A DNA stretch of 64,000 bases from Zingiber officinale (lineage: Eukaryota; Streptophyta; Magnoliopsida; Zingiberales; Zingiberaceae): NCBI RefSeq assembly GCF_018446385.1, contig NC_055992.1, forward strand, positions 100,830,947 to 100,894,946. Reading direction: 5' to 3'. The number at the start of each line of letters is the position of its first letter. Position 1 is the first letter of the stretch. A model generated the notes under the pieces. The model did no database searches, had not been told where the DNA came from, and saw nothing but the letters and a program-made list of their open reading frames with translations. Below, piece after piece: positions 12,205-62,817 of the stretch. The position numbers and the translations under genes were made by a program.

Positions 12205-12640
12205 GGCTGAGAAGGAAGATGATAAAGGGGATCGAAATTGAAGGGTTTCAGCTCGCGACGGAATCGAATTAACTCGGGAGGAAGAAAGAGGCGGCAATAA
12301 AAAGGAATTTGGTCGCGACTGGAGACGGGAAGCGATGGATTGGGCATGGGACGTGGACGTGGATCCTATCCAGATGTAGAAATCTTATCCGTCCCATCGC
12401 CGGCCTGTGAGTTATAACCGTCCGATCATGTAATATTGCTGGCGGATTTGGAGCGGATTCTATCTCGAGCACGTGGTCAGGGGAGAGCCAATTGTATCTG
12501 TACGGCATCGCGATACCCATGACCATGAGAGGTAGTGTACGTCAGCCAGGACAATCTGTGGGGTCCGTTTTTTCCGCCAATCAAGGAAGAGTAAGAGTAG
12601 AGATTGCATAGAAAATGTGTTTTACGCCGCCGCCAGAGGA
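12205..12640 (-). promoter_or_regulatory. ARP8 upstream region with a G-box
   Basis: Region upstream of the ARP8 start. It contains a CACGTG G-box at 12470-12475 and a CCAAT pentamer at 12577-12581 on the + strand (ATTGG with respect to ARP8). Frames seen here on the minus strand lack a continuation and look like leader sequence. The transcription start was not located. Confidence 0.4.
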
Positions 12641-35714: not shown

Positions 35715-35964
35715 AACTTCGCTGTTTCAAATAGTACCGTGTTTTAATTTTCTGTTTTAGCAGGTTGATTAGGAATATTCAAAATTCGATTCGATAAAAA
35801 TTTATTTGAACTCGTTTAATGAAATCTATTAAAATAAATACCCGTTAGTTAATGAGTATGCTCGTTGGTAAGCTCATGAATCAACTTTTAAATAAAAAAC
35901 TAATAGTTTTGATATTGAATTTATAGATTTTACACTTTATTTATAAAAAATATAGACAAATATA
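35715..35964. other. Spacer up to Copia element A
   Basis: AT-rich; contains another weak GCTCGTTGGTAAGCTCATGA stretch like the hAT-like MITE interior. The last bases (ATATA) may be the target site of element A. Confidence 0.4.
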
Positions 35965-37245
35965 TGTTGGTGTGGGAAGCATCTGACGATCGAACCTAAG
36001 TGTTGATAATGGCAAAAGATTCAAAGTTAAGTTTATTTGTGATCTAATGTGTTTGAATGAGTTTGTAGGGAAAACACTAAGGTATCTTAGGCAAAAGTTC
36101 TAATTGTGGTTAGGCAGATAGAAAACCCTAAGGGGTGATAATCCTATGTCCTAGGGGGTGGTAACCCTAGGCGAAAAGTCTTGACGGGTCGAAGCTTCGG
36201 GCAAAAATCCTAGGGGGTGGTAATCCTAGGTGGAAAGTCTTGGTGTCGCGAACCAAGTGGAAAGTTTGGACGGGTCGTGGAGCAAACATCCAACAGAAAG
36301 ACTTGAAAACTCGGGCATTGAGCAAAAGTCCAGTCGATCTGGAGGATCAAACTGACAACAGGTATACTCTCCTGAGTGGAGTAGGTGAGGACGCATTCCC
36401 CGGAGAGGGAATAGTAGGCGTCGATTCGACCTAGGATTTCCGGTCGGAAATCCGAAGTCAGAACCGCACAGTCCGGAGATTGCCAAATACTATTGTTATC
36501 ATGTTTATTATGTGCTAACTTTGTTTTGCAGGATATATTGTTGTTTTGTGGACTAACGTAGCTTGCAGGATGAAGAAAGAGCTCAAATTCCCAAATGAGT
36601 GCCCGGGGCGCCTCCATAGAGCTTAGAGATGCCTCGGATGCTTTGGAAGAAGGAGCACACGAAGTCAAGCTTGAGGCGCCCTCAAGGAGTGTTGAGGCGC
36701 CTCGGATGGGCTTGAAGGCGCCATCCATGGCATTAGAGGTTCCTTCAAGAGGATGAGCGGCAACTCCTTCAACCCTTATCTTCACTACGAAATCGGCGGA
36801 GTTGAGGGCGCCCTCAAGGAGGTTGAAGGCGCCCTCAACAGGCTTTATATACCTGTCTCGACCAGTAGCATGGACATATCACTTTCTGAGCATCTTTCAA
36901 CTATTTGCTGCTAACGAGACGATCCGGCTGAGCCATAACAAGACCCCAATGATCCGAAGCTGCGAATTTCAAATTCCTATTGTCGGTATAATTTTAGTTC
37001 AGTTAAATTGTAATATTCTTCTTGTAATATTTGCGCGATTATAATTGTTGCCCAAATTAAACGCTCAACGAGCATGAGCCTTGGAGTAGGAGTCGCCACA
37101 GGTTCCGAACCAAGTAAATCGTTGGTGTTTGTGATTGTTCTTGTTTACTTTATTTCCTCTGCATTACTTGTTGATTTTCCGAAACGAAAAGTGAAAGTCA
37201 CGAGCGTTATTCACGCCTCCCCCTCTAGCACGTCTCGATCCAACA
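35965..37245 (+). repeat. 5' LTR of element A
   Basis: 1281 bp, TGTTGG...CCAACA termini. It contains CCTAGGGGGTGGTAACCCTA-type inverted phrases near 36150-36235, at least eight GGCGCC sites at 36600-36840, and a TTTATATACC TATA box at about 36842. It resembles the LTR of element B in its first 80 bases. Confidence 0.9.
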
Positions 37246-40106: not shown

Positions 40107-41638
40107 TTGGATCAATGGATGCTAGATAGTGGATACTCCAGGCACATGACTAGAAATAGATTGAAATTCACTAAGTTGAAACTCAAGAACCTAGGGTCAG
40201 TTGCATTCGGCAACAATAGAACCCTTAGTAATATTCAATTAAGTTCCAATTTCTATATTCGAAAGGTTCTACTGGTTGATCAATTCAATTTTAATTTACT
40301 TAGTATTAGTTAGTTGTGTGACTCAGGATACTTAGTCACATTTTCAAAATCTGAATGCTTAATTAAAAACATTAAAAATCCTGAAATCACACTTAAGGGA
40401 ATTAGGAAAAAAAATATTTATACAATTGACTTACAATCCTCTTCACTAAAGTGTCTATTGACACAACAAGAGGAAACTAAGTTGTGACACAGAAGATTGG
40501 GTCACACTCATACTAGACTTATTTCAAAAATGAGTCAAAATGGCTTGGTTAGAGGTCTGCCCAAACTAAAATTTATAGAAAGTTCAATTTGTAATGCTTG
40601 TCAACAGGGTAAACATACCAAGTCAACCCACAAGTTAACCAACTTAAATAGAACTAATTCAATACTTGAGCTCCTACACTTAGACCTGTTTGATTTACAT
40701 AGAGCCAAGTCACTAAGCAAAAACCGATATTGTTTAGTGATAATCGATGACTACTCAAGATTTACTTGGGTAAAATTTCTAAAAACTAAAGATGAAATCT
40801 ACGAAATCTTTAAAATCTTTTGTAAATTAATAGAAAATGAAAAAAAACACTCAAATAAAAAGAATTAGAAGTGACCATGGGGGAGAATTTGAAAACCACA
40901 AATTTATTGAATTTTATGAAATAAATGGATGTAAACACGAATATTCATGCCCTAGAACCCCCAACAAAATGGTCTAGTAGAACGTAAAAATAGAACCCTA
41001 CAAGAAACTGCTAGAACCATGTTGAATGAATATAATCTATCTAATCAATTCTGGGTTGAAACAATTAATATAGTCAGTAATATACAAAATATAATTTTAA
41101 TTAATAAAATTCAAAATAAAACACCATATGAAATATATTATAATAAAATTCCTAACTTAAACTATTTAAAGGTGTTTGGGTGTAAATTTTCATTTTAAAC
41201 ACCAAAGACTACTTAGGGAAATTTACTTCAAAATCAACCACAGGAATCTTTTTAGGGCACTCTACAACCAGTAGAGCATCTAGAGTTTATAACAAAAACA
41301 CCCTAAAAGTTGAAGAAACAATAAATGCAATTTTCGATGAAGACAATAATCTTTCCAATGTAATACATGAAAATATTAATACAGAAAATATTAACTCAAG
41401 AAACATAGAAGATGATGAAGAAATCAACTTAAACCTAGAGAATTATAAGAACCAGTTACTGACCCAAATATAAGACCAACAAGAACAAGTACTAATCACC
41501 CATCCGACCAAATTTTGGGTGACCCAACTCTAGGAGTCAGAACTAGATCATCTTATAGAAACCTAAGTCAAATAGCCCTTATTTTCAAAATTGAACCCAA
41601 AACTATAGACGAAGCCCTACCAGACCCAGACTGGATAT
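40107..41638 (+). pseudogene. Copia pol of element A: protease, integrase and start of RT, decayed
   Basis: Order of blocks: WMLDSGYSRHMT (aspartic protease, DSG intact), a GAG-pre-integrase zinc finger (LGHTHTRLISKMSQNG, later CNACQQGKH), the integrase core (HLDLFDLHRAKS, IIDDYSRFTWVKFLKTKDE), NGLVERKNRTLQETARTML, and the start of RT (GVRTRSSYRNLSQIA, PDPDWI). Multiple stops and frameshifts occur, for instance after HSNKKN. The frame ends at the insertion of element B, before the RT catalytic motif. Confidence 0.85.
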
Positions 41639-42923
41639 TGTTGGATCGAGAAGCGCTAGAGGGGGGGGGGGGGGGAATAGCACTCGTGACTATTTCGCAT
41701 TTCGGATTCGTAAAACTATCGAGTTAAAGCAGCGAAATAAAGTAAAAGACAACAAACATAGAAAGGCACCAGGGATTTACTTGGTTCGAAGCCTGTGACG
41801 ACTCCTACTCCAAGGCCCGCGATCGTTCATCGCTTCCGGTGGGCAACGACTATAAGCTTAGAAAAGAGTACAAATTTGTATTACAATAAGTGCAATAAAG
41901 AACTATTATACCAACGACAGAATCAAAATCTCGGAGCTCCGGGTCGTCGGCGGCTTGTAACAGCACTTCAGGGCGTCTTTTGGAGCAGCACGTTGTAGTA
42001 GAAGCACTTAGGAATTGTTGTCTTGACTGCTGCCTCGAGACCCCCTTTTATGCACTGCGGAGGCACCTCCAACACCATCCAGGGTGCCTCCAATACGCCG
42101 AGTCAACCGCGTGGATCGGTGCTGAAATGTTCACCTCTTATCCTGCTTGAGGTGCCTTCATGGCCACTCCAAGGTGCCTCCAAGCTCTAGTCTAAGGCGC
42201 CTCCATCTCCGTCTGAGGCTCCTCCAAGCCTGCTGTGCAGCCAGCTCACCCTCTGCACTCGAGGCGCCTCCAACCTCCATGGAGGCGCCTCGGACACTGT
42301 TCATCCGAGGTGTGACTTGCTCCTTTGTTCCTGCAAAATGTATTAGTCCCAAACACATACCATACAAAACAAAGTTAGCACATAATAGTCATAGTAAATG
42401 AGATATTGACAGTCTTCGGACTGTCCGGGTCTGACTTCATATTTCCAACCGAAAACCTTAGGTCGATCCGATGCCTACTGTTCCCTCTGCGGGGAGCGCG
42501 CCCTCACCTACTCCACTCAGGAGATTTACCTGATGCCAACATGATCCTCCAGATCGACTGGACTTTTGCTTGACGCTCGATGCTTCCGGACTTTCTGCTG
42601 GACGCCCGCTCCCTGACCCATCCAGTCTTCCACCTGGTTCGTGACACCAGGACTTTCCATCTAGGGTTACCACCCCTAGGGCTTTTGCCTGGAGCTCTTG
42701 ACCCGCCAAGACTTTCCGCATAAGGTTACCGCCCCATATGACCTAGGGTTACCACCCCCTAGGGGTTTCCACCTGCCTAACCGCAGTTAGGACTTTTGCC
42801 TAAATACACTTAGGACTTTCCTACAAGCTTATTCAAACTATTAGATCACAAATCAACTTAACTTTGAACCCTTTGCCATTATCAAAATACAGGTTCAATC
42901 GTCGAATACTTTCGGCACCAACA
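41639..42923 (-). repeat. 3' LTR of element B
   Basis: 1285 bp, TGTTGG...CCAACA. Contains a G/C homopolymer of at least 12 near the end, GGCGCC/GGTGCC sites flanked by A and T at 42060-42290, and a CATAAAAGG TATA-like box near 42045 (minus). Compared with the 5' LTR part at 63078 onward it differs by several substitutions per 100 bp, so the insertion is not recent. Confidence 0.9.
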
Positions 42924-45342: not shown

Positions 45343-46467
45343 TGTTGGTGCTGTTAGCACTAACGGTCTAACTCAGGTTTTGATGAATGACAAATCAGGT
45401 TAAGTTAGGTTTGTCATTATCTAACACTCTGAACGAGTGTGCAGGCTAAGTCCAGATAGGTCGACGGGCTGACCGGATGTCTGGCACGAAGTCCAAGCGG
45501 GTCGACGGGCTGACCGGATGCTTGGCGAGAAGTCCAAGCGGGTCGACGGGCTGACCGGACGCTTGACACGAAGTCCAAATGGGTCGAAGGGCTGATCGGA
45601 CATTTGGCAATAAGTCTAGCTAGGTCGACGGGCTGACCGGATAGCTAACGAGAAGTCCAGACGGGTCGAAGGGCTGGCCGGATGTCTGGCAGGTGAGTAA
45701 AGGTAAGTTACTGGAAGAGAGTGACTGTGAGGACGCGTTCCCGGGAAGGGAACATTAGGCGTCGATCCGGCTTAGATCCATTTCTGATATCTAAGTCGAG
45801 ATCGTGACTAGATTCCGGTCTCGGAAAGACGGAATCTAAGGCATACTTTTTATATTGAACTTATAAACTGTGCTAACACTTTGTTTTGCAGGATATACAT
45901 TATCTATTTGCCTCGGACTAACCTTGTCTTATAGGAAAGAGGTTCCCTGGAGAAAGGTGGTCCGGGCGCCCGGAGGTGAATTCTATCCTGATCGCGGCGT
46001 CGACACGTGGAGCTCGCTGGTTGGACCTGCTACGTTACACTAGGGCGCCCGGAAGGGATCCGGGGCGCCCCGAGCTTAATATACAAGAAGGGGCAGGGGT
46101 GTAGCCTCAACAACTTTGAATTGAAGAAATCGCTCTCTTGTGCTCCTGCGACGCTGCAAAGCTCCGACAAACGCGCTGCTTCTCTCTTTAAGTCTCTTAT
46201 TTTGTCGGTATTGCTTTAATTATTTCATTAGCATTTTTTGTACTTAGTTTGTAATATCTTTCGAACTGCTAGTGAATTGTCCATCGAAAGCACCCTCGTG
46301 TGCGGGCCTTGGAGTAGGAGTCGTCAAAGGCTCCGAACCAAGTAAAATTGGTTCTTGTGTTAGCATTGCATTGTTTTATTCTTCCACTGCGCTTACTCTT
46401 ATCGACGAATTTTTTTATAATCGATATTCACCCCCCCCCCCCTCTATCGAACGTCTATGATACAACA
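45343..46467 (+). repeat. 5' LTR of element C
   Basis: 1125 bp, starts TGTTGGTGCTGTTAGCAC and ends ...GATACAACA (CCAACA with one change). Contains six tandem hairpin units (45448-45690), GGGCGCCC palindromes at 45965-46070, a CTTAATATACAAG TATA-like box near 46076, and a C homopolymer near 46430. Confidence 0.92.
45448..45690 (+). repeat. Hairpin array in 5' LTR of C, six units of about 40 bp
   Basis: Each unit reads aagt, arm, GGTC, GACGGGCT-like loop, GACC, ggat, complementary arm. Outer arms by unit: CCAGAT/GTCTGG, CCAAGC/GCTTGG, CCAAGC/GCTTGa, CCAAAT/ATTTGG, TAGCT/AGCTA, CCAGAC/GTCTGG. Arms differ between units yet pair within units. Confidence 0.92.
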
Positions 46468-46469
46468 AG

Positions 46470-46481
46470 TGGTATCAGAGC
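46470..46481 (+). other. Primer-binding site of element C
   Basis: TGGTATCAGAGC, exact tRNA-Met type, two bases after the LTR. Confidence 0.92.
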
Positions 46482-46744
46482 AGGTACCGCTCTGATTTGG
46501 TGCAACCACCAATCAAGCAAGGGGGTGATTTGTTTTAAAAATTTTCTTTTCTATTTTCGAATTTCAGTTTTTTCATAAAATTCCAAATTGGTACAATTAC
46601 CTTTTTTGGAAATCTCCTTCCGTCGTAATTACATCTAAATTGGTGCAACATCAATTTAGTTATTTTTTGTAATTCTTCCCGTACTACTAATCCAAGACCA
46701 AGTCTTGGAACCTCTCTATTTGTTTTTTTTTGTGTAGATTAAAA

Positions 46745-47587
46745 ATGTCGTAGATCGAGGGCTTCAGCACAGTGTGACCTTCCCTTTTCAATGGGGATGA
46801 TTTCCTGTACTAGAAGAAGTGGATGGAAGTATATCTCAAGACAGATTTCGACTAGTGGCTGAGCGCCACAAGAGCCTACAAAATACCAGTAGACAACTCG
46901 GGGAATCTACTGGATCCTGAAGAATGGACAACAGACTTAAAGAAGAAGGCATCAACAGAGAACAAGGCAATCAACACATTACAGTGTGGATTAACAAGAG
47001 AAGAACTGAACCGGGTCGGACCACATAAAAATGCTAAGGAGCTGTGGGATAAACTGATCGAACTGCACGAAGGAACGAGCGACGCTAAGGTAACGAAACG
47101 AGACTTGCTTCTAAATAGAATATTTAACATAAAAATGCAGGAAGGAGAAACGGCCAGCCAACTCCACGCAAGAATCAAAGATATTCTCAACGGACTCCAC
47201 GCAATAGGACACCAGATGGAGAACCGGGACTTAATAAGGTATGCCTTAAACGCTTTTCCACGCAACAACTTGTGGGCATCAATCGTAGATGCCTACAAGA
47301 TCTCTAAAAATCTATCAAAATTAGAACTAGATGAGCTTTTCTGTGAATTAGACATAAACCGAGAACTAAAAATTAAATTAATGGCCATTAATTTAGGGGG
47401 AGGCTCCAGAATAGCTGGCACCCCCAAAACTAACCTACCCGGCAGGGTAACCCTAACCAACCTACCCGATAGGGTAATTAGGATTAATTTAAAAGGGTTC
47501 AAGTTTAACTTGAAAAATGGTACTGGTGAAATTTTGGATGATAGTACGTTAGGGAAGCTTAGTCTATGCATGTCTAGGAAGATATGA
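46745..47587 (+). pseudogene. Copia gag of element C, with four early stops and an internal deletion
   Basis: ATG at 46745. Stops at 46751 (TAG), 46775 (TGA), 46811 (TAG) and 46853 (TAG); in element D three of these codons read CAG, CGA and CAG. Downstream the core is recognisable (GLTREELNRVGPHKNAKELW, LIELHEGTSDAKVTKRDLL, QEGETASQLHARI). After DELFCEL the frame jumps to a region that in D lies about 1 kb further on, deleting the zinc knuckle and coiled coil. The junction shares TAGA with both sides. Confidence 0.85.
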
Positions 47588-47884
47588 CTTCGACCTGGTG
47601 CATTTGGCTAAGTGGAACTGACCGAAGCTACCCTTTATGGACCCTAACCAGTTAGACCAAGGTCTTGTACTAAGTTTAGGACTATTTGGAAAACCTCGAA
47701 GGCATGGTTACTTTAATGATGTCCAAGTGACTCACCATAGCCCAAAAGTTTATCCAGAGAACTCCTATTTGTTGAACTCAAAGTTAAACCTGAATCTAAC
47801 ACAAGTTAAAAACAAACCCTAAAATTGAACCTAATTCATATCACAAAATTATAGGATTCCTTGATTGAAAACATAGATCAGGTG

Positions 47885-49440
47885 AGATGACTAAGAACTT
47901 TAAATTAAAATTAAAATTAAATTAAAATTAAAATAAAATTAAAATTAAAATTAAAATTAACTTTAAAATTAAATTAAAATAAATTAAAATTAAAATAAAA
48001 TAAAATTAAAATTAATCGTAAATTCTTTTTAAATTAGTTTTAAAAATTAAACTTTATTCTTTTAAAAAAAATTATTAAACTTATTCTTTTTAACTTAAAA
48101 ATTTATTTCTTAATTTTTTTTAAAAAAAATATTTTAAAAATTAAAACTTAAATTTTTTTTAACTTTAAAAATTAAAATTTAATTTTTATTAACTTAAAAA
48201 TTTATTTTAAAACTTAATTTTTTTTAAAAAAAAATTATTTTAAAAATTAAAAGTTAAATTTTTTAATTTAAAAATTTATTTTAAAAATTAAAACTTAATT
48301 TTTTTTTAACTTAAAAAATTATTTTAAGAATTAAAATTTAAATTATTTTTAACCTAAAAATTTATTTTAAAAGTAAAACTTAAATTTTTCTTAACTTAAA
48401 AATTTATTTTAAAAATTAAAACTTAAATTTTTTTTTAACTTAAAAATTTATTTTTTTAACTTAAAAAATTATTTTAAAACTTAATTTTTTTAAAAAAATT
48501 AAAACTTAAATTTTTTTTAACTTAAAATATTACTTTAAAAATTAAAACTTAATTTTTTTTAAATTAAAATTTTATTTTAAAACTTAAATATTTTTTCTTA
48601 AAAATTTATTTTAAAACTTAAAATTTTTTCTTAAAAAATTATTTTAAGAATTAAAACTTAATTTTTTTTTAACTTAAAAATTTATTATAAAAATTAAAAC
48701 TTAATTTTTTTTAACTTAAAAATTTATTTTAAAACTTAAATCTTTTAACTTAAAAATTATTTTAAAAATTAAACTTAATTTTTTTATTTAAAAATTGTTT
48801 TAAAAAAAGTAAACTTAAATTTTTCTTTAACTTAAAAATTATTAAACTTAATTTTTTATTTAAAAATTGTTTTAAAAATTAAACTTATATTTTTCTTTAA
48901 CTTAAAAATTATTTTAAAACTTAAACTTAAATTTTTTTTAAATTAAAACTTATTTCTTTAACTTAAAAATTTATTTTTTTAACTTAAAAATTTATTTTAA
49001 AAACTTAAATTTTTTTTACTTAAAAATTTTTATTTTAAAAATTAAAACTTATTTTTTTTTTAAACTTAAAAATTTATTTTAAAACTTAATTTTTTTTTAA
49101 CTTAAAGATTTATTTTAAAAATTAAAACTTAAAATTTTTTAACTTAAAAATTTATTTTAAAAATTAAAACTTAAATTTTTTTAAACTTAAAAATTTATTT
49201 AAAACTTAAATTTATTTTAAAACTTAATTTTTTTTTAACTTAAAGATTTATTTTAAAAATTAAAACTTAAAATTTTTTATCTTAAAAATTTATTTTAAAA
49301 ATTAAAACTTAAATTTTTTTAAACTTAAAAATTTATTTAAAACTTAAATTTTTTTCTTAAAAATTATTTCAAAAATTAAACCAAATTTTTTTTACTTAAA
49401 AAAAATCTTAAAAATTAAATTTAAAATTTTTCTAACTTAA
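47885..49440. repeat. AT-rich repetitive array of element C
   Basis: About 1.5 kb of degenerate repeats: first AAATTAAAATTAAAATTAA, then many TTAACTTAAAAATTTATTTT and AAAACTTAAATTTTTTTT units. No coding potential. It occupies the place of pol. Confidence 0.9.
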
Positions 49441-49494
49441 AAATTTTTATCTTTAAAAAAAAAATCAAAATTGAAGTCAAAAACCAGGGGCGGG

Positions 49495-49590
49495 CACCCC
49501 TGGTATACGGACTCGGGCTGCTCGGAATGGATCCGGGCGCCCCGCCCCACTTGAGCCCGGGCGCCCAGAGTCCCCTATATATAGGGGGGC
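49495..49590 (+). promoter_or_regulatory. Internal promoter-like block of element C
   Basis: GC-rich island in AT-rich surroundings with GGGCGCCCC and CCCGGGCGCCC, then TATATATA at 49576-49583 and a pyrimidine-rich leader. The accessory ORF starts 166 bp downstream. Same motif order (GGCGCC sites, then TATA) as the LTR U3. Confidence 0.6.
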
Positions 49591-49748
49591 AGGGGTGCCC
49601 CCTCCGCTTGCACCTCCTCCATTCGCTTTCGTCCAAGCTTCTTTCGAGCTTTACTACAAAAGTGTTCAAAAATAAATTTTTCCTCGTTCTACGGTTAATA
49701 CGCAGTTGCGAATCAACTGAGGTCGTCAGTTCTAAAAATATTTTGGCA

Positions 49749-51095
49749 ATGGCTCCTCGGTAAAACTCTTGTCTCCTGTTTAAATTTTTAGAATTTTGTT
49801 GCATGTTTGTTTTCTTTAATTAGTATAATTTTGTTTCATAATTTAGGAATCGTTCTAAATCTGGTGTTGGGCCCTCTATTCCTAGTATTGACCCTAGGTT
49901 TCCTACTGATGAGCTTAGGATTAAGTTTGACTCAACCATCTACATGGTCATTAGGACTAAATGTATAGATAGAGCATTCTTTTTATGCTCTTGTATTCCA
50001 GCTATAGAGGCAATAAACCACTATAACTTGTAGAACCTTGTTGAATGTACTAGCCCAGTAAACATAAGTTTGTGTGCCGAATTTTATAACAACCTAGTGA
50101 AAGTAGACGACCTCACCTATACTACTAGGGCAGTTGGCACTGATATCACGTTGTCCCCTAGTACCATCCGGGACTTTTTGGAGGTACGGTCATCCACCTG
50201 TCCCTTTCAGTGCTATCCTCCCAAGGAGCTACCATTTGGAGATTCCTACTCGCATATTACTCTTGATACAATTTATGCGTATTTTTTTTGTGGCGTGCGA
50301 GTACCCACTGTGACCTAGTTTAGGTCAGTTGCCCTTCGAGTCGAGGACTACACCCTTTATAGGGTCTTAGTCTTTTGCATTCTACCACTGAGCACTCACG
50401 ACATCGCGATGATGCGCCCATTCCACTCTTTTCTCCTCTATGCCCTGTGTCATAGGTTAGATATTAACATTAGCCTGCATATATTTTCTACCATTATTTA
50501 CTCAGCCGGATACGTGACGAGTGGGCGAGTTCATATGCCCTACTGTCACATTCTGACAGCATATATGTCCTCTTTGGGCATTGATGTCACCAGAGGTGAC
50601 ATCCGCTATATGACTGAATTTGACGTTATAGGAGCTAGGAACTTTTCCCTAGCTAGTATTCATATAGATAGTGAGGGTATCATGACTTGGCAGAGGGGGC
50701 ACAACACCAGCCCGACCCAGATGCTTAGCAGGAGAAGGCAGAGCAGGATGAGTTTTTTCTCGCACTATTTCCTGACGAGGCTGCTCCTGCCCCAGCACCA
50801 GCTCGAGCCCCACGTCCCGCTCCTCGCACTCTAGCCGATTAGAGTATCCGGACTAGAGAGAGCGATGTCGAGCCTCCAGCAGGAGTCCTCCGAGTTTCAC
50901 CGAGACATACGGCGAGAGGTCTCCGACTTACGACGAGAGGTGCGACAGGAGGTCTCCGACTTACGACGAGATGTGCGGCAGGAGATCTCCGACCTACGAT
51001 GAGACCTACGAGAGGATGACCAGACCCGACATACTGAGCTGTTGGCACTACTTCGTTCTCTGGGTTCCGGACCACCTCCTTCATCATCTCAGTAG
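49749..51095 (+). pseudogene. Accessory ORF of element C, with a conserved intron
   Basis: Exon 1 is 49749-49759 (MAP plus two bases of an Arg codon), intron 49760-49846 (GTAAAA...ATTTAG), exon 2 from 49847. The product begins MAPRNRSKSGVGPS. Blocks: LCAEFYNNLVKVDDLTY, LPFGDSYSHITLDTIYAYFF, RVEDYTLYRVLVFCILPL, MMRPFHSFLLYALCHRLDI, GRVHMPYCHILTAYMSSLGI. The C-terminus is a charged coiled coil of about 12-residue repeats (REVSDLRREVRQ, EVSDLRRDVRQ). Stops at 50031 (TAG; element D has CAG), about 50316 and 50832 break it. Homologous to the accessory ORF of B and the shortened one of D. The family is not recognised with certainty and the function is unknown. Confidence 0.7.
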
Positions 51096-52576
51096 TTATG
51101 TTTGTTATATAACTCTGTTATGACACTACTACAGATCTTGTAGTACATCTTGATCTATTGACTATCACTTCAGATTTGATTGGTTCTGCTTTAATTTGAT
51201 AGACTAGAATTTTTCAAAAATTGTTTTAAAAAATGATTGTTTTAAATCCTAGGTTAAAATTATTTTCAAAACTCCTATTTGTCGAATTTCAAAACAATTT
51301 TAGCCTTAGACTAGAAAAATCCCTTTAGAAATCATGTTCCCCTAGGACTAGTATGTGAGCATCTCACCAACACCCTAGGTTTACCTTGCTTGTGATTGAC
51401 AAACATAGAAAGGGGTGAGATGTATAGGCCAGTTGTCTGGACTTAAGATGCTTATGTCAGTTCATCAATATAAGTCTGAGCGTTAAATACAAAACATACA
51501 TTGATCAAGCTAAGTGATTCAGTTTAGTCAAACACTGACTAATTACAATGAACTTAACTTGACTAAGCAAGTGAAAGCTAATATCTTCTGATAGTTAGTA
51601 AGTACCTAATTGGTTAGACAACTATTTTGAATGTCCGGTTTAGGGGGAGGATCAATTATTTTCATATTTATTTTTTTTACTAAAAATATTTTGAAATTAG
51701 TTTTTGAAAAATGTTTAAAAATAAATCTGATCTTTGGAAATTTAATTTGATAAATCTATTTTTGAAAATTAACTTTTATAAAACTAAATTCTTCAATTAG
51801 ATTTTATAAACTAAGATTTTGAAAATTGAATCTTTGGCAAACTTAGTTTTAACCAGTTTTGAAAAGTAAATATCATTTAAAACTTAGCTTTGAAATTTTT
51901 GTTTTTTCATATTTGAAAAGTGTTTCAAAATTAAAACTTATGTTTGGAAATTTTCTTGAAAACTTAGTCTTGAAATTTTGATTTTGAAAAACTTATGTTT
52001 GAAAAGTGTTTCAAAGTTGAAACTTATTTTGAAAATTTAAACCTTAAAATTTTGGTTTTAAAAACTCATGTTTGAAAAGTATTTTAAAGTTGAAACTTAC
52101 TTTGAAAATTTGTAACTTATAAACTTATGTTTGGAAATTAGAATATCTAAACTTGCTTTCCTAAACTTAAGCTTGAAAATTAGCTTTTACAAAATTTTTC
52201 TTAAGTTTGCAAAGTCAATTAATTTTGCAAAAATTATCTTTCAAAATTACTCAAAATGTACTAAATACTAAGTTATGTTGCTAAATTAGCTATTTTCAAA
52301 ACTTAGTTATTTTACAAAAGTTAAGAAACTAAAGCTAAATTACTATTTAAACTCCCCTAAGTTAACTTGACATTTTTTCTTACAAGTTTTACTTTGTTTG
52401 TATTCCGAAATTACTTGACTTATGCCCTTATTTGATGAATGCCAAAGGGGGAGGGATAGGTGGTTAAGTTAGAGCAACAAATGTCAAATTTAAAAACTAA
52501 CTTAAACCTTAAAAATCATGCTTGTTTGTTTACTTGCATATTTTTTTCACTAACTTAATCAGGTTGTCATTCCATC
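51096..52576 (+). other. 3' untranslated interior of element C
   Basis: AT-rich with repeated phrases such as AAACTTATGTTTGAAAAG and GTTTCAAAGTTGAAACTTA. No supported frame. Confidence 0.6.
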
Positions 52577-52590
52577 AAAAAGGGGGAGAT
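52577..52590 (+). other. Polypurine tract of element C
   Basis: AAAAAGGGGGAGAT abutting the 3' LTR start TGTTGG. Confidence 0.92.
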
Positions 52591-53569
52591 TGTTGGTGCG
52601 GTTAGCACTAACGATCTAACTCAGGTTTTAATGAATGACAAATCAGGTTAAGTTAGGTTTGCCATTATCTAACACTCTAACGAGTGTGCAGGCTAAGTCC
52701 AGACAGGTCGACGGGTTGACCGGATGTCTGGCACGAAGTCCAAGCGGGTCGACGGACTGACCGGACGCTTGGCGACAAGTCCAAGCGGGTCAACGGGTTG
52801 ACCGGATGCTTGGCACGAAGTCTAGCTAGGTCGACGGGCTGACCGGATAGCTAACGAGAAGTCCAGACGGGTCGAAGGGCTGACCGGATGTCTGGCAGGT
52901 GAGTAAAGGTAAGTTACTGGAAGAGAGTGACTGTGAGGACGCGTTCCCGGGAAGGGAACATTAGGCGTCGATCCGGCTTAGATCCATTTCTGATATCTAA
53001 GTCGAGATCGTGACTAGATTCCGGTCTCGGAAAGACGGAATCTAAGGCATACTTTTTATATTGAACTTATAAACTGTGCTAACACTTTGTTTTGCAGGAT
53101 ATACATTATCTATTTGCCTCGGACTAACCTTGTCTTATAGGAAAGAGGTTCCCTGGAGAAAGGTGGTCCGGGCGCCCGGAGGTGAATTCTATCCTGATCG
53201 CGGCGTCGACACGTGGAGCTCGCTGGTTGGACCTGCTACGTTACACTAGGGCGCCCGGAAGGGATCCGGGGCGCCCCGAGCTTAATATACAAGAAGGGGC
53301 AGGGGTGTAGCCTCAACAACTTTGAATTGAAGAAATCGCTCTCTTGTGCTCCTGCGACGCTGCAAAGCTCCGACAAACGCGCTGCTTCTCTCTTTAAGTC
53401 TCTTATTTTGTCGGTATTGCTTTAATTATTTCATTAGCATTTTTTGTACTTAGTTTGTAATATCTTTCGAACTGCTAGTGAATTGTCCATCGAAAGCACC
53501 CTCGTGTGCGGGCCTTGGAGTAGGAGTCGCCATAGACTCCAAAGAAAGTAAAATTGGTTCTTGTGTTAG
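52591..53569 (+). repeat. 3' LTR of element C, left part
   Basis: Starts TGTTGGTGCGGTTAGCAC and carries five hairpin units (52695-52896). It follows the 5' LTR to TTCTTGTGTTAG, where element D starts in a G run. The remaining 73 bp lie at 60031-60103. About 27 LTR bases are missing at the breakpoint. Confidence 0.9.
52695..52896 (+). repeat. Hairpin array in 3' LTR of C, five units
   Basis: Arms by unit: CCAGAC/GTCTGG, CCAAGC/GCTTGG, CCAAGC/GCTTGG, TAGCT/AGCTA, CCAGAC/GTCTGG. The CCAAAT unit of the 5' LTR is absent, so copy number differs between the two LTRs of one element. Confidence 0.92.
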
Positions 53570-54035
53570 GGGGGGGGGGGTGAATATCGATTATAAAAAA
53601 TTCGTCGATAAGAGTAAGCGCAGCGGAAAAGACGAAATTGAAACAACGCTAACACAAGAACCAATTTTACTTGGTTCGGAGCCTTTGGCGACTCCTACTC
53701 CAAGGCCCGCACACAAGGGTGCTTTTCATTGGACAATCCACTAGCAATTCGAAGATTCAATTACAAAGTTTAAGTACAGAAAAGCTAGAACAAGAAGTAC
53801 CGACAATAGAAAATAAGAGGAGGCGGACAGAGCTTTGTCGGAGATCTTTCGCAGTGTTGCAAGAGCGCAGGAGAGCATGTTTCAGTTCGTTCTGAGTTGT
53901 TGTTGAGGCTCCACCCCTGCCCCTTCTTTTATATGAGGCTCGGGGCACCCCGGATCCCTTCCGAGCGCCCTAGTGTGACGTAGCAGGTCCAACCAGCGAG
54001 CTCCACATGTCGACGCCGCGATCAGGATAGAATTC

Positions 54036-54125
54036 ACCTCCGGGCGCCCGGATCCCTTCCGGGCGCCCGAATCCCTTCCGGGCCCCGGATCCCCTCCGGG
54101 CCCCGGATCCCCTCCGGGCGCCCGG
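54036..54125. repeat. GC-rich short tandem repeat in D 3' LTR
   Basis: Five units of about 18 bp built on CCGGGCGCCCGGATCCCTT or CCGGGCCCCGGATCCCCT. The 5' LTR of D has only one reduced unit here, so the two LTRs differ by about 70 bp. Confidence 0.9.
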
Positions 54126-54397
54126 ACAACCTTTCTCCAGGGAACCTCTTTCCTGCAAGACAAGGTTAGTCAGAGGCAAATAGAAAATGTATATCCTGCA
54201 AAACAAAGTGTTTAGCATAGTTTATAAGTTCAATATAAAAAGTATGACTTAAATTCCATCTTTCCGACACCGGAATCTAGTCACGATCTCGACTTAGATA
54301 TCTGAAATGGATCTAAGCCAGATCGACGCCTAATGTTCCCTTCCCGGGAACGCGTCCTCATAGTCACTCCCTTTCAGTGACTTACCTTTACTCACCT

Positions 54398-54641
54398 GCC
54401 AGACGTCCGGTCAGCCCTTCGACCTGTCTGGACTTCTCGCTAGCTATCTGGTCAGCCCGTCGACCTAGCTGGACTTCGTGCCAAATGTCCGGTCAGCCCT
54501 TCGACCCATTTGGACTTCGTGCCAAGCGTCCGGTCAGCCCGTCGACCCACTTTGACTTCTCGCCAAGCGTCAGGTCAGCCCGTCGACCCGCTTGGACTTC
54601 ATGCCAGACATCCGGTCAGCCCGTCGACCTGTCTGGACTTA
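54398..54641 (-). repeat. Hairpin array in 3' LTR of D, six units
   Basis: Arms as read on the + strand: CCAGAC/GTCTGG, AGCTA/TAGCT, CCAAATG/CATTTGG, CCAAGCG/ACTTTGa (partly broken), CCAAGCG/CGCTTGG, CCAGACA/TGTCTGG, each around a GGTCAGCCC(G/T)TCGACC core. Confidence 0.9.
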
Positions 54642-54745
54642 GCCTGCACACTCGTTCAGAGTGTTAGATAACGACAAACCTAACTTAACCTGATTTGTCA
54701 TTCATCAAAACCTGAGTTAGACCATTAGTGCTAACTGCACCAACA

Positions 54746-54759
54746 ATCTCCCCCTTTTT
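54746..54759 (-). other. Polypurine tract of element D
   Basis: CAAAAAGGGGGAGAT on the minus strand at the 3' LTR start. Confidence 0.88.
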
Positions 54760-54919
54760 GATGGAATGACAACCTGATTAAGTTAAAAAAAATTATGCAA
54801 GTAAACAAACAAGCATGATTTTTAAGGTTTAAGTTAGTTTTTAAATTTGACATTTGTTGCTCTAACTTAACCACCTATCTCTCCCCCTTTGACATTCATC
54901 AAATAAGGACATAAGTCGT

Positions 54920-55277
54920 CTACTTTCACTAGGTTGTTATAAAATTCGGCACACAAACTTATGTTTATTGGGCTAGTACATTAAACAAGGTTCTGCAAGT
55001 TATAGTGGTTTATAGCCTCTATAGCTGGAACGCAAGAGCGTAAAAAGAATGATCTATCTACACATTTGGTCCTAATGGCCATGTAGATGGTCGACTCAAA
55101 CTTAATCCTAAGCTCGTCAGTAGGAAACCTAGGGTCAATATTGGGCGTAGAGGGTCCAACACCAGATTTAGAACGTTTCCTAAATTATGAAACAAAATTA
55201 TACTAATTAAAGAAAACAAACATGCAACAAAATTCTAAAAATTTAAACAGAAGACAAGAATTTTACCGAGGCGCCAT
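54920..55277 (-). pseudogene. Accessory ORF of element D, N-terminal part only
   Basis: Exon 1 55277-55267 (MAP plus two bases), intron with GTAAAATTC donor and ATTTAG acceptor, exon 2 from 55179 (KRSKSGVGPSTP...). The frame runs to LVKVDD and then joins sequence that in element C lies in the 3' region (ACTTATGTCCTTATTTGATG). The deletion removes the rest of the ORF and most of the 3' interior, with GAC shared at the junction. Confidence 0.75.
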
Positions 55278-55419
55278 TGCCAAAATATTTTTTAGAACTG
55301 ACGACCTCGGTTGATTCGCGACCGCGTATTAACTGTAGAACGAGGAAAATTTTACTTTTGAATGCTTTCATAGTAAAACTTGGAAGAAGCTTGGACGAAA
55401 GTGAATGGAGGAGGTGCAA

Positions 55420-55500
55420 GTGGAGGGGGCGCCCCTGCCCCCCTATATATAGGGGACTACGGGCGCCCCGGGTCCGTATACCAGGGGCGCCCGCCCCTGG
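55420..55500 (-). promoter_or_regulatory. Internal promoter-like block of element D
   Basis: GGGGGCGCCCC, GGGCGCCCCGGG and GGGGCGCCCG sites with TATATATA at 55444-55451, about 167 bp upstream of the accessory ATG. Layout as in element C. Confidence 0.6.
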
Positions 55501-55519
55501 TTTTTGACTCCGGTTTTGA

Positions 55520-56480
55520 TTTTTTTTTTGGATAAAAATTTTAAAGTTAGAAAAAATTTAAATTTAATTTTTAAGATGTTTGTTTTTTAAGTAAAAAAAA
55601 TTTAGATTAATTTTTAAAATAATTTTTAAGTAAAAAAAATTTAAGTTTTTAAATAAATTTTTAAGTTAAAGGAAAAAATAAGTTTAATTTTTAAAATAAT
55701 TTTTAAGTTAATAAAAATTAAGTTTAAATTTTTAAAATAATTTTTAAGTTAAAAAATTTAATTTTAAGTTTTGAAATAATTTTTAAGTTAAAAACAATTT
55801 AAGTTTAATTTTTAAAACAATTTTTAAATTTAAAAAGTTAAGTTTAATTTTTAAAATAATTTTTAAGTTGAAAATTTTAAGTTTAAGTTTTAAAATAATT
55901 TTTAAGTTAAAAAAAATTTAAGTTTAATTTTTAAAATAATTTTTAAATTAAAAAAGTTAAGTTTAATTTTTAAAATAATTTTTAAGTTAAAAAAAATTTA
56001 AGTTTAAGTTTTAAAATAATTTTTAATTTAAAAACAATTTTTAAAAAATTAAGTTTTAATTTTTTAAGAAAAAAATTAAGTATACTTTTTTTTAAAAAAT
56101 AATTTTTATGTTAAAAATTTAGGTTTAAAATATTTTTTTTAAGTTTAAGAAAAATTTATGTTTTAAAATAAATTTTTAAGAAAAAAATTTAAGTCTTAAT
56201 TTTTTAAAATAATTTTTTAAGAAAAAAATGTAAGTTTTAAAATAAATTTTTTGAATATTTTTTTTTAATTTAAGTTTAATTTTTTAAACTAATTTTAAAA
56301 AAAATTACGATTAATTTTAATTTTAATTTTAATTTTAATTTAATTTATTTTAAATTTAATTTAATTTTAATTTTAATTTAAAGTTAATTTAATTTTAATT
56401 TAAAGTTAATTTAATTTTAATTTAAAGTTAATTTAATTTTAATTTGATTTTAATTTAATTTTCATTTAAAGTTCTTAGTC
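55520..56480. repeat. AT-rich repetitive array of element D
   Basis: Degenerate units such as AATTTTTAAGTTAAAAAA and TTAAGTTTAATTTTTAAAAT, ending in AATTTTAATTTAAAGTTAAT repeats. Shorter than the homologous array in C. Confidence 0.88.
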
Positions 56481-57224
56481 ATCTCACCCGATCTATGTTT
56501 TCAATCAGGGAATCCTATAATTTTGTGAGATGAATTAGGTTCAATTTTAGGGTTTGTTTTTAACTTGTGTTAGATTCATGTTTAGCTTTGGGTTCAATAA
56601 ATAGGCGTTCTCTGGATAAACTTCTGGGCTATGGTGAGTCACTTGGACATCATTAAAGTAACCATGCCTTCGAGGTTTTCCAAATAGTCCTATCCACTGG
56701 ACTTAATACAAGACCTTGGTCTAACTGGTTAGGGTCCATAAAGGGTAGCTTCGGTCAGTTCCACTTAGCCAAATGCACCAGGTCGAAGTCATATCTTCCT
56801 AGACATGCATAGACTAAGCTTCCCTAACGTACTATCATCCAAAATTTCACCAATACCATTTTTCAAGTTAAACTTGAACCCTTTTTAACTAATCCTAATT
56901 ACCCTGTCGGGTAGGTTGGTTAGGGTTACCCTGCCGGGTAGGTTAGTTTTGGGGGTGCCAGCTATTCTGGAGCCTCCCCCTAAATTAATGGTCATTAATT
57001 TAATTTTTAGTTCTCGGTTTATGTCTATTTCTTTTATAATTATATTTTACTTGGTGATAGTTTAAATTTTGTTGAGTTCTAGTATGTTTAGATTTTAAAT
57101 TTTTTGGTTTAGGTTTGTGTTCTGGTTTTTTATTTGGTTTATTTGACTTTACGTAATATATTTTATCTTTAGGGATATAATATTGGTTGGGTCCTATTTG
57201 CATTGTTAAACACACTTTCAGAAC

Positions 57225-58680
57225 TCAGGCTTTATTTGTTAGTTTGTATTGGGTTATTAATGATTTAAAAGTTTTATTTGAGTTCGACTTATATCCGAGT
57301 CTGGTTTTATTATAACATGCTTTTTGATTATTTAGAATTAAGTCTAAATTTTTTGATCTGGTAGTAAATTTTTCTAACATATTTTTTAAATTATTAATTT
57401 CTAATTTTAATGATGAATTCTCCTCCTCAAGTGTTAGATCTTGAGTTGGTTTATTATTTACAACTTGTTCCTTGAGGATTTGATTTTCCTCGAGGAGCAA
57501 TTTGTTTTCATTTTCTAATTTAACTAACTTATTATTTAAGCACGAAATAATTTTAAAAAACTTTCGGTTCAAGGTTAGGAATACCTCTTCGGAACCTTCG
57601 AAAACGAGTACGGACTCGTGGCTCGATTCAGGTTCGGACCCGTCTTCCGATTCGTCTTCCGACTCTGCTTCGAGGGCCATCAGCGCGAGGTGGCTTTGGT
57701 GCTTCTGATCTTCTGCTTCCGATTCTTCGGAGGAGGAGTCGTCCCACGTTGCTTTGAGGGCCTTCTTTTTGGTTGGCTTCGGTTTGTCGATCTTCAATCT
57801 CGGGCACTCGTTCTTGTAGTGACCTTTCTTGTTGCATCCGAAGCACGTCACACTCCTCGATTCAGTTGGAGAATTGATCTTTTGAAGGTCCTTCTTGCTG
57901 AAACTTCTTTTCCTCCCGGTGAACATCTTCCTTACCAGGTTCACCAGGTGTTCTTCATCTTCAGAGTTCTGGTCAGAATCCTCTTCAGGTTCAAATTATT
58001 CTTCTTTTCTTTTGAGGAACCTGCAAATAAAGCTACACCTTTCTCGATCCCAGCGTTAGTTTGCTCATGCAGTTCTAATTCACAGAAAAGCTCATCTAGT
58101 TTTAATTTTGATAGATTTTTAGAGATCTTGTAGGCATCTACGATAGATGCCCACAAGCTGTTGCGTGGAAAAGCGGTTAAGGCATACCTTATTAAGTCTC
58201 GATTCTCCATCTGGTGTCCTATTGCTTGGAGTCCGTTGAGAATATCTTTGATTCTTGCGTGGAGTTGGCTGGCCGTTTCTCCTTCCTGCATTTTTATGTT
58301 AAATATTCTATTTAGAATCAAGTCTCGTTTCGTTATCTTAGCATCGCTCGTTCCTTCGTGCAGCTTGATCAGTTTGTCCCACAGCTCCTTAGCGTTTTTA
58401 TGTGGTCCGACCCGGTTCAGTTCTTCTCTTGTTAATCCACACTGTAATGTGTTGGTTGCCTTATTCTCTGTTGATGCCTTCTTCTTTAAGTCTGTTGTTC
58501 ATTCTTCGGGATCTAGTAGATTCCCCGAACCGTCTACTGGTATTTTGTAGGCTCTTGTGACGCTCATCCACTGGTTGAAATCTGTCTTGAGATATACTTC
58601 CATCCGCTTCTTCTAGTACGGGAAATCATCCCGTTGAAAAGGGGAGATCGCACTGTGCTGAAGCCCTCGATCTGCGACAT
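57225..58680 (-). pseudogene. Copia gag of element D, nearly full length but frameshifted
   Basis: ATG at 58680 (MSQIEGFSTV). A single-base deletion in the first 25 codons shifts the frame. TAG replaces Trp at the same codon as in A and C, and TGA replaces Trp further on. The core (QEGETASQLHARI, ENRDLIRYAL) is conserved. The zinc knuckle is intact: CFGCNKKGHYKNEC. A Glu-rich region and coiled coil (KLENENKLLLEENQILKEQ) follow. A further frameshift separates the two halves near 57945. Confidence 0.85.
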
Positions 58681-58941
58681 TTTTAATCTGCACAAAAAAA
58701 TAAATAGAGAGGTTCCAAGACTTGGTCTTGGATTAGTAGTGCGGGAAGAATTTAAAAAAAATAACTAAATTGATATTGCACCAATTTAGATGTAATTACG
58801 ACGGAAGGAGATTTCCAAAAAGGTAATTGTACAAATTTGGAATTTTACGAAAAAACTGAAATCCGAAAATAGAAAAAGGAATTTTAAAAATAAATCACCC
58901 CCTTTCCTGATTGATGGTTGCACCAAATCAGAGCGGTACCT

Positions 58942-58953
58942 GCTCTGATACCA
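58942..58953 (-). other. Primer-binding site of element D
   Basis: TGGTATCAGAGC on the minus strand, exact, two bases from the LTR end. Confidence 0.92.
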
Positions 58954-58955
58954 CT

Positions 58956-60030
58956 TGTTGGATCGTAGACGTTCGATAGAGGGGGGGGGGGGTGAATATC
59001 GATTATAAAAAATTCGTCGATAAGAGTAAGCGTAGCGGAAAAGACGAAATTGAAATAACGCTAACACAAGAACCAATTTTACTTGGTTCGGAGCCTTTGG
59101 CGACTCCTACTCCAAGGCCCGCACACAAGGGTGCTTTTCGTTGGACAATCCACTAGCAATTCGAAGATTCAATTACAGAGTTTAACTACAGAAAATCTAG
59201 AACAAGAAATACCGACAATAGAAAATAAGAGGAGGCGGACAGAGCTTTGTCGGAGATCTTTCGTAGCGTTTGTAAGAGCGCAAGAGAGCAGGTTTCAGTT
59301 CGTTCTGAGTTGTTGTTGAGGCTCCACCCTTGCCCCTTCTTTTATATGAGGCTCGGGGCACCCCGGATCCCTTCCGGGCGCCCTGGTATGACGTAGTAGG
59401 TCCAACCAGTGAGCTCCTCTTGTCGACGTCGTGATCAGGATAGAATTCACCTCCGGGCGGCCAGACCACCTTTCTCCAGGGAACCTCTTTCCTGCAAGAC
59501 AAGGTTAGTCCGAGGTAAATAGATAATGTATATCCTGCAAAACAAAGTGTTTAGCACAGTTTATAAGTTCAATATAAAAAATATGACTTAGATTCCGTCT
59601 TTCTGAGACCGGAATCTAGTCACGATCTCGACTTAGATATCAGAAATGGATCTAAGCCGGATCGACGCCTAATGTTTCCTTCCCGGGAACGTGTCCTCAC
59701 AGTCACTCCCTTCCAGTGACTTACCTTTACTCACCTGTCAAACATCCGGTCAGTCCTTCGACCCGTTTGGACTTCTCGCCTGCTATCCGGTCAGCCCGTC
59801 GACCTAGCTGGACTTCGTGCCAAATGTCCGGTCAGCCCTTCGACCCATTTGGACTTCGTGCTAAGCATCAGGTCAGCCCGTCGACCCTCTTGGATTTCGT
59901 GCCAGACATTCGGTCAGCCCGTCGACCTGTCTGGACTTATCCTGCACACTCGTTCAGAGTGTTAGATAACGGTAAACCTAACTTAACATGATTTGTCATT
60001 CATCAAAACCTGAGTTAGACCATTAGTGCT
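58956..60030 (-). repeat. 5' LTR of element D, start truncated
   Basis: Ends (minus) GATCCAACA at 58956. Its beginning is cut after AGCACTAATGG at about 60030, where 73 bp of C's 3' LTR follow. Includes five hairpin units (59736-59940), one with arms CAAAC/GTTTG not seen elsewhere. By eye about two dozen differences from D's 3' LTR over the first 470 aligned bases. Confidence 0.9.
59736..59940 (-). repeat. Hairpin array in 5' LTR of D, five units
   Basis: Arms (+ strand): CAAAC/GTTTG, a decayed GCTAT/TAGCT unit, CCAAATG/CATTTGG, a decayed CTAAGC unit, CCAGACA/TGTCTGG. Confidence 0.88.
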
Positions 60031-60103
60031 TACTTTTATCGACGAATTTTTTATAATCGATATTCACCCCCCCCCCCCTCTATCGAACGTCTACGATCCA
60101 ACA
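60031..60103 (+). repeat. 3' LTR of element C, right end
   Basis: Plus-oriented LTR tail (TACTTTTATCGACG...GATCCAACA) followed by the TACAT target site at 60104-60108. Confidence 0.9.
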
Positions 60104-61791: not shown

Positions 61792-62817
61792 CTAATCGAG
61801 TTCGTCGTCGTCGTCTTCTGAGGAAGATTCTTCGAATGTTGCTTTCAAGACCTTTTTCCTTCTTTGTTTCTTTATCTCCTTTTGGTTGGGACAGTTGACT
61901 TTGATGTGTCTCTTCTGGTTGCAGCCATAACACGTCACTTCAAATTTTACCTTCGAGCTTGATTGGGCTTCTTTGGACTGGACCACCTTCTTGAGGTCCC
62001 TTTTGTTGATCCTCTTCTTCTTCTTGTACAGCTTATTTACAAGGTTGACGAGTTCAACCATTAGTTCGTCGTCTTCATCGTCTGAGTCAGGTTCTTCATC
62101 TGATTCTGGTTCGGTTCTACGCCTTAGTCTTGGTTGGCGTGTTCTACTTGTACCTACAACCAAAGCAATGACCTTCTCGGTTGGCTGTGCATTAGTCTGC
62201 TCATGTAGTTTGAACTCAGAGAATAATTCATCTAATTTTATAGAAGATAAGTCCTTGGAGACTTTGTAGGCATCTACCATTGATACCCACAATGTACTCC
62301 TCGGAAACGCGTTGAGAGCGTACCTTATTATATCCCTGTTCTCGACCCTTTGCCCGATCGCGTGGAGGGAGTTGAGAATGTCTTGAATACGTGCGTGGAG
62401 TTGACTTGCTGTCTCTCCTTCCTGCATTTTGAAATTATATAATTTATTAAACAACAAATCTCTTTTGCTTACCTTGGTGTCGGAGGTGCCCTCGTGCAGT
62501 TCGATCAGCTTCTCCCACAGCTCTTTTGCGATTGAAAAAGGACCAACTCTATTGAGCTCTTCCTTGGTCAGTCCACACTGGAGGTTGCAGGTTGCTCTGG
62601 CATTGGCTTCCACCTTCTTGATTAGAGCTAGTTCCCAGTTCTCGCAGGGTGTAGGCTTGCCGTCTTCGTCGGTTGGCAGTTGAAACCCGGTCTTGACGAT
62701 CATCCACATCTCGAATTGGATTTTTAGAAAATTCTCCATTCGTCCTTTCCAGTACCCGAAATCTTCTCCAGTGAAGAGCAGGGGACGAACGGTGCTGTAA
62801 CCTTCTTGCTGGGCCAT
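61792..62817 (-). CDS. Copia gag of element B, intact main frame
   Basis: 341-residue open frame from ATG 62817: MAQQEGYSTVRPLLFTGEDF, YWKGRMENFLKIQ (Trp kept, unlike A, C and D), LTKEELNRVGP, ELWEKLIELHEGTSDTKVSK, QEGETASQLHA, an acidic stretch, and a zinc knuckle CYGCNQKRHIKVNC with C-C-H-C spacing intact (Gly before His changed to Arg). The frame ends at TGA/TAA-type stop at 61792 after a run of Asp/Glu; related coding continues a little further, so the C-terminal coiled coil seen in D is missing. Gag could still be produced if transcribed. Confidence 0.85.
   Translation of the reverse strand: MAQQEGYSTVRPLLFTGEDFGYWKGRMENFLKIQFEMWMIVKTGFQLPTDEDGKPTPCENWELALIKKVEANARATCNLQCGLTKEELNRVGPFSIAKELWEKLIELHEGTSDTKVSKRDLLFNKLYNFKMQEGETASQLHARIQDILNSLHAIGQRVENRDIIRYALNAFPRSTLWVSMVDAYKVSKDLSSIKLDELFSEFKLHEQTNAQPTEKVIALVVGTSRTRQPRLRRRTEPESDEEPDSDDEDDELMVELVNLVNKLYKKKKRINKRDLKKVVQSKEAQSSSKVKFEVTCYGCNQKRHIKVNCPNQKEIKKQRRKKVLKATFEESSSEDDDDELD

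Follow-up and report, generated by a model that had tools for sequence, protein, structure and literature searches.

Palindromic repeats in a long terminal repeat (LTR) raise the question of whether their arms are held complementary or drift like the surrounding sequence, and, if they are held, at what stage in the life of the element. The question is posed here by a window of 64,000 nucleotides from ginger (Zingiber officinale), located at C7:100830947-100894946 of the 3.09 Gb assembly that was used for the genome searches. Two retrotransposons in the window, element A (45343 to ~53569, + strand) and element C (60033 to 53568, - strand), adjoin via their 3' LTRs, and each of their four LTRs holds a tandem array of hairpin units that starts ~105 bp past the LTR start. 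The outer arms differ between units but are mostly complementary within a unit, and the scatter among related copies in the genome suggests that the pairing was kept while copies transposed and was lost after landing. We lean, with some reserve, towards regarding the arrays as the distal palindromic cis-region in a family of Sirevirus-like Copia elements from ginger, in which the pairing of the arms was constrained while the lineage transposed.

Arrays and unit architecture

The LTRs and arrays of the two elements are located as follows (PPT, polypurine tract; PBS, primer binding site).

45343..46467, + strand: 5' LTR of element A (TGTTGG...CAACA), 93% to the 3' LTR by BLAST, with the junction CA/AGTGG/TATCAGAGC
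45448..45693, + strand: array A5, six 41-bp units
46076..46087, + strand: TATA-like box TTAATATACAAG, ~385 bp past array A5, read from sequence
52591..53569, + strand: 3' LTR of element A (BLAST), ~last 100 bases lost at the C junction
52695..52899, + strand: array A3, five units, the CCAAAT unit being absent
53568..54745, - strand: 3' LTR of element C (BLAST), ~last 24 bases lost, PPT at 54755 (-)
54395..54640, - strand: array C3, six units
58956..60033, - strand: 5' LTR of element C (BLAST), first 10 bases absent, PBS at 58950 (-)
59734..59938, - strand: array C5, five units

The arrays A5, A3, C3 and C5 contain 6, 5, 6 and 5 units, in total 22, with a period of exactly 41 bp, and there are 22 core matches with at most 3 mismatches at these places against 0.03 expected in shuffles. 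An earlier note on this DNA, made from the sequence alone, had described 5-6 tandem units of about 40 bp in four LTRs, in U3-like sequence upstream of a TATA-like box and with six and five units in the two LTRs of C, all of which is borne out here, and the unit number varies between the mates of A too. The truncated 5' LTR of C is directly adjoined at 60028-60103 by a fragment of an LTR end, 95% to the end of the A 5' LTR, in a nested or rearranged junction.

The inner stem of the unit pairs columns 12-15 with 24-27 (GGTC/GACC) around an 8-nt loop that in most units is GACGGGCT or GAAGGGCT, the outer stem pairs columns 5-11 with 31-37, and a 3-nt GGA bulge is located on the 3' side. The inner stem, the constant loop and the arm pairs named in the earlier note are thus all present; its outer arm pair of six bases does pair, but has to be extended to seven pairs plus the GGA bulge. 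Columns 11:31 are A:T, G:C or G·U in 21/22 units (19/20 distinct rows) and covary, and family copies with CCAGACA/TGTCTGG in the first unit and CCAGACG/CGTCTGG in the sixth also support the seventh pair. The CTAGCT/AGCTAA unit in the window has a C·A mismatch at the outermost pair, and the corresponding family copies are mostly CCAGCTA/TAGCTGG. The CAAAC/GTTTG pair of array C5 (59734-59774) is unlike its LTR mate and therefore probably arose after insertion; two-sided changes of this kind occur at about the chance rate.

Covariation of the arms in the window

Among the 20 distinct units, 95.9% of 220 cells are standard pairs, and 32 cells are changed on both sides against 9.0±3.9 in column shuffles. 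A tree-matched null, built on a tree from the units with independent change at the observed rates and 2000 simulations, gives the same picture. Arm cells are paired in 93.5% of cases against 74% under this null (P about 0.0005), and both-changed cells number 38 against 3.1, a value reached in 0/2000 simulations; the result is unchanged when the left arm, the right arm or both are excluded from the tree. Drift alone is thus rejected for the unit types and, on the genome counts below, for the family arms, which implies a pairing-dependent process, as had been claimed. Between unit types a hand count gives 8 two-sided and 2 one-sided pair differences; comparing the two LTRs of A, and likewise those of C, yields 2 two-sided (one compensatory) and 10 one-sided (Fisher P 0.005, with the type side counted by hand).

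Pairing states in the ginger genome

A first look gave 5,767 candidates, 40 of which were scored, and the best matches, thirty six-unit arrays that include A5 and C3, were compared; ten further arrays are not in this count, and one unit that is one base short (L078 u3) was left out. Outside the window, LTR mates were assigned solely by their spacing and strand. In the thirty arrays Watson-Crick is the commonest state at 42/42 unit-pairs, with no G·U. Departures from it are one-sided in 87 cases and two-sided in 4, where independence of the two sides predicts 3.2 two-sided; resident copies thus drift without partner correction. The one-sided changes give sense-strand G·U in 32 cases, A·C in 42 and other mismatches in 13, so neither strand is clearly favoured. 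They are scattered over the tree of the flanks except for sibling pairs, which may be haplotype alleles. Three presumed pairs of LTR mates differ by about 6% in array plus flanks, and a fourth, which may not consist of true mates, by 15%. At family level 0/24 cells (6 units x 4 varying pairs) are half-paired against about 12 under independent change, in a test that is crude, the cells not being independent.

Arm correction in the host genome was considered and rejected on the independent scatter of the copies. Since arm mutations in resident copies are independent of the partner, the process that keeps the pairing is placed before insertion. Of the selection or arm correction that had been proposed, a pairing-dependent process is retained and correction in integrated copies is not; likewise, the independent arm mutations that were named as contrary evidence do occur in resident copies, while the unit types show covariation above the null.

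A unit pattern with free arms has 56,501 matches in the assembly and 0 in a reversed control; the assembly may hold both haplotypes, and these are not counts of insertions. Arm states were taken for this pattern and for a second core class, in each case from the first 100 places listed, all on contig C1. Both search patterns prescribe C and G for the outermost pair, so these lists test the pairs inside it. In the first list 77 units are fully Watson-Crick, 18.7 being expected if arms were drawn independently, a single pair of another kind is present in 20 units, two in 2 and four in 1, and there are 10 distinct self-matching arm pairs. The second core class, GGTCAAAGGATTGACC, comprises 3,190 of the 56,501 units, and 47 of its first 100 are fully Watson-Crick against 23.7 if independent. 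Pair 2 in these hundred is C:G in 74, T:A in 11, T·G in 10 and others in 5. Further two-sided changes are CTAAGTG/CACTTAG (10) and CCTAGCA/TGCTAGG (2), and the one-sided CTAAGTA/TACTTGG is found in 6/100, showing that intermediates exist as multi-copy states.

Related hairpin chains and neighbouring motifs

In two further related LTRs of the window, each of another subfamily, the region of U3 that corresponds to the A and C arrays likewise holds a hairpin chain.

35964..37245, + strand: LTR E, with its own hairpin chain in U3
41638..42923, - strand: LTR D, hairpin chain with loop GGTGGTAA and arms CCTAGGG/CCCTAGG

Among the commonest arms in 30 D-family copies are CCTAGGG/CCCTAGG, CCTGGT/ACCAGG and ACTGGAC/GTCCAGC, the last having an A·C outside six Watson-Crick pairs; CATAGGG/CCCTATG is present in most listed copies. 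Locus L103 has CCTAAGG/CCTTAGG alternating with CCTAGGG/CCCTAGG on similar loops, the first such unit being one-sided. The D family and L103 thus repeat the matched-arm pattern on other loops. A genome table of 218 hairpin hits with the GGTGGTAA loop mixed shifted registers with chance hits, and no statistic was drawn from it. At another locus, L088 (about 2000-2740, -), a further LTR-like stretch holds roughly twelve hairpins of 30 bp in a row, with CCTAG/CTAGG, CCTGG/CCAGG and CTTGG/CCAGG around TGAGTGAAG and mismatched arms in some.

The end of array A5 is overlapped by a splice-donor-like CAG|GTGAGT at 45690-45698, and about 200 nt past it is a branch-point/acceptor-like TGTGCTAACACTTTGTTTTGCAG|G (45869-45892) with the acceptor end TTTGTTTTGCAG|G. 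With at most 5 mismatches the acceptor motif is found in 28/30 A-family loci (24 ending in CAG) and 30/30 D-family loci (23 ending in CAG); in LTR E it is visible, though missed by a stricter pattern.

Explanations for the paired arms

If the pairing is constrained as we favour, the unit should be a bulged hairpin or dyad in which GGTC-GACGGGCT-GACC is constant, GGA bulges out and the seven pairs of the outer stem would be maintained as pairs, with their sequence left free to vary. In the transposing lineage a change in one arm would be followed by the matching change opposite, often via a G·U or A·C intermediate, and the several self-matching unit types would therefore have arisen in this way and then been shuffled into arrays mostly as whole units. 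After insertion the constraint would end and the arms would decay independently. The feature kept would then be a structure working in the life cycle of the element. Its U3 location would place it in promoter-upstream DNA and, in the 3' LTR, in a predicted part of the transcript just downstream of the PPT.

Several observations weigh against such a constraint. Whole-array folds of A5 (RNA of both strands, and DNA) and of C3 (RNA) are similar to those of shuffles, with z -0.4 to -1.0, and single units, folded for A5 only, give modest values of z -1.1 to -2.6 for RNA and -0.1 to -2.4 for DNA. Most of these units adopt the fold drawn here, but unit 4 takes another as sense RNA; on these folds the folded RNA suggested in the earlier note is possible rather than established. 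Independent two-sided events are few, and the unit types have spread in many copies. The commonest state of the second core class is CCAAGTA/CACTTGG (25/100 listed), with A·C at the innermost outer-stem pair, and several of its places are at LTR-mate spacing, with mates assigned by spacing and strand. A mismatched lineage has therefore probably transposed, and unpaired arms would then be no bar to transposition. There are also 301 chimeric units, 165 of CCAGCTA..CGCTTGG and 136 of CCAAGCG..TAGCTGG, a few of them at LTR-mate spacing. Exchange inside the core thus happens and is tolerated, but the chimeras stay rare, each about 1.3-1.6% of the parent CCAAGCG..CGCTTGG with 10,342 units. The D-family hairpins include a pair that is G·T in the family as a whole, a homologous hairpin that lacks complementarity, and others with mismatches in the registers tested. 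The D-to-E comparison, when started from D, gives 2 two-sided pairs against 1.7 expected (P 0.51, and 0.53-0.64 with other settings, three settings having been used). Started from E it gives 5 against 1.6, a weak excess (P 0.02, and 0.01-0.02 with other settings). Broken pairs are not significantly fewer in this comparison. As a second covariation test it is unconvincing and shows no clear excess, the alignment being uncertain in at least one unit.

In quasi-palindrome correction a growing strand folds back at a hairpin and one arm is copied onto the other. Such templated copying during reverse transcription or replication, with the pairing as a mutation by-product that requires no function, is an explanation that we take seriously but doubt. 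It would act only in replicating lineages, as observed, and would suit the family arms, which are Watson-Crick at 42/42 without G·U and so more perfect than selection on RNA needs, and the changes between types, which are in adjacent bases. On the other hand CCAAGTA/CACTTGG and CTAAGTA/TACTTGG are multi-copy mismatches, some at LTR-mate spacing, and since mismatched states survive transposition, correction is at least not immediate. Stepwise compensation under moderate selection accounts for these states better than templated copying that acts at once, while slow copying is compatible with them. The asymmetric GGA bulge also persists, and copying would tend to erase it.

Parallel decay, in which the same methylated CG/CHG sites, shared by both arms as inverted copies of each other, undergo independent C-to-T changes that mimic compensation, is very improbable. 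Most type differences are G:C/A:T transitions, as it should give, and the CCAAAC/GTTTGA unit of C5 is an example of post-insertion origin. It predicts, however, mostly half-changed pairs, about 12/24, and at family level there are none. Nor would it readily yield the compensated transversions, which are C:G in CCAGCTA where other units have A:T or G:C, A:T in CATAGGG/CCCTATG where others have C:G, and T:A in CCTAGCA/TGCTAGG against A:T. Since this independent decay and host correction are both disfavoured, a pairing-dependent process in the transposing lineage would be left. A further account takes the units as DNA elements only, binding sites or cruciforms in promoter cis-boxes for which an RNA fold is irrelevant. 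Sirevirus LTR palindromes are located in the cis-region and have been proposed as regulatory boxes (PMC2829016), the family arms are Watson-Crick rather than G·U, and one-sided changes do not favour sense-strand G·U over A·C. A sequence-specific factor would, however, hardly tolerate arms that change while only the inner core is constant, and we consider this account improbable.

A broader claim, which we put forward tentatively and ourselves find unlikely, is that the tens of thousands of units are a record of compensatory evolution, with arms kept complementary only during transposition, through selection for a structure that every cycle needs or through arm copying in reverse transcription. 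If true, this would provide a direct handle on whether reverse transcription builds and maintains LTR palindromes. Matched variable arms on a constant core separate sequence from pairing, the contrast between pairing kept while transposing and lost when resident shows when the constraint acts, and with 56,501 units in one assembly, counting can separate selection from copying. Why Sirevirus LTRs keep palindromes that possibly expose them to small-RNA silencing is described as an open question (PMC10760457).

Other features of the window

Two other tandem arrays, at 26676-27431 (57-bp units with CTCGGCCGAG-like palindromes) and 25341-25927 (65-76-bp units), are located outside the described Sirevirus LTRs. 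An open reading frame (ORF) with a SAE2/CtIP C-terminal domain adjoins a second ORF at 23089-24751, perhaps as one split host gene, and an F-box ORF is found at 11755-12297. Elements A and C have three ORFs of at least 150 aa; of the two that were scanned, one resembles gag weakly, as a fragment (22 bits against a cutoff of 27), and the other matches no family. PF14223 is matched with 57 bits (cutoff 27) by a gag ORF at 61792-62817 that probably belongs to the D element. The matches of a protein search with gag include two Salmonella enterica records with the same plant-type gag, which are probably plant contamination of bacterial assemblies.

Sirevirus hallmarks and comparison with known palindromes

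Three further features of element A bear on its classification.

46473..46481, + strand: primer binding site TATCAGAGC
52581..52588, + strand: terminal polypurine tract AGGGGGAG, then AT/TG
45964..46070, + strand: three GGGCGCCC palindromes, (C)GGGCGCCC(G), just upstream of the TATA-like box

The elements appear Sirevirus-like (a plant Copia genus) by their non-coding hallmarks, because the PPT with AT/TG, the PPT copies, the PBS junction, the poly-C signal and the palindromes match those described in PMC2829016. The terminal PPT AGGGGGAG followed by AT/TG is found at 52581 (+), 54755 (-) and 42933 (-), and copies are clustered before the 3' LTR at 51642, 52446 and 52581 in A and at 54888 and 54755 in C. 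A candidate inverted repeat around the PPT/3' LTR junction of A (52556-52653) was seen by eye only. The junction CA/AGTGG/TATCAGAGC at 46473 (+) and 58950 (-), with ATTGA for ATTGG in E, can be set beside the Sirevirus rule CA/A(T or G)TGG/TATCAGAGC (PMC2829016). The distance to the LTR end is some 22-25 bp for the poly-C runs at 46431 (+), 58992 (-) and 41675 (-), and on average about 21 bp for the poly-C integrase signal of the genus (PMC2829016). Part of the genus has an envelope-like gene with extra boxes of the palindromic repeated motif (RM) ahead of it (PMC2829016); element A has GGGCGCCC boxes at 49535-49566 and a TATATATAGG stretch (to 49595), in a position ahead of the env-gene region of env-bearing Sireviruses.

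Patterns for relatives outside ginger matched 62 stretches and 1 stretch in IMG/VR, each with a single match and no array, which we read as chance with the loci uninspected, and gave 0 matches in GTDB genomes; an open translation across array C3 had no protein match.

In their PPT, PBS and poly-C signals the ginger elements are like those of PMC2829016, and the RM of Sireviruses (Bousios et al. 2010, PMC2829016) share with the ginger units that short palindromes are arrayed in the upper part of the LTR, ahead of the TATA box. The GGTC/GACC half-sites also resemble CGGTCAGACCG of Osr8, CGGTCTGACCG of Osr10 and CGGTCGACCG of Vitis (PMC2829016). RM as described there measure about 10-20 bp, and their copies within one element are 66-100% identical. 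The ginger unit, a compound hairpin of 41 bp, combines a constant core with self-matching arms that are specific to each unit, and its distance to the TATA box is greater. With its GGTC/GACC stem and varying arms it falls outside the RM definition (short, CGG-CCG core, near-identical). The GGGCGCCC boxes at 45964-46070 are CGG-CCG-core palindromes upstream of the TATA box, and would be better candidates for the classical RM than the 41-bp units. In maize, Sirevirus palindromes are reported to be structured small-RNA hotspots; like those of ginger they are complex, belong to the regulatory portion of the LTR, have a strong predicted structure and vary highly in sequence (PMC10760457, PMC5311732); the maize motif is CACCGGACNNNGTCCGGTG, and the accessible text of these two papers does not mention arm covariation between units. 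No report of palindrome units with covarying arms was found in the open-licence literature searched. Palindrome arrays in Sirevirus LTRs are thus known (PMC2829016), and what is new here is the constant core with arms that covary.

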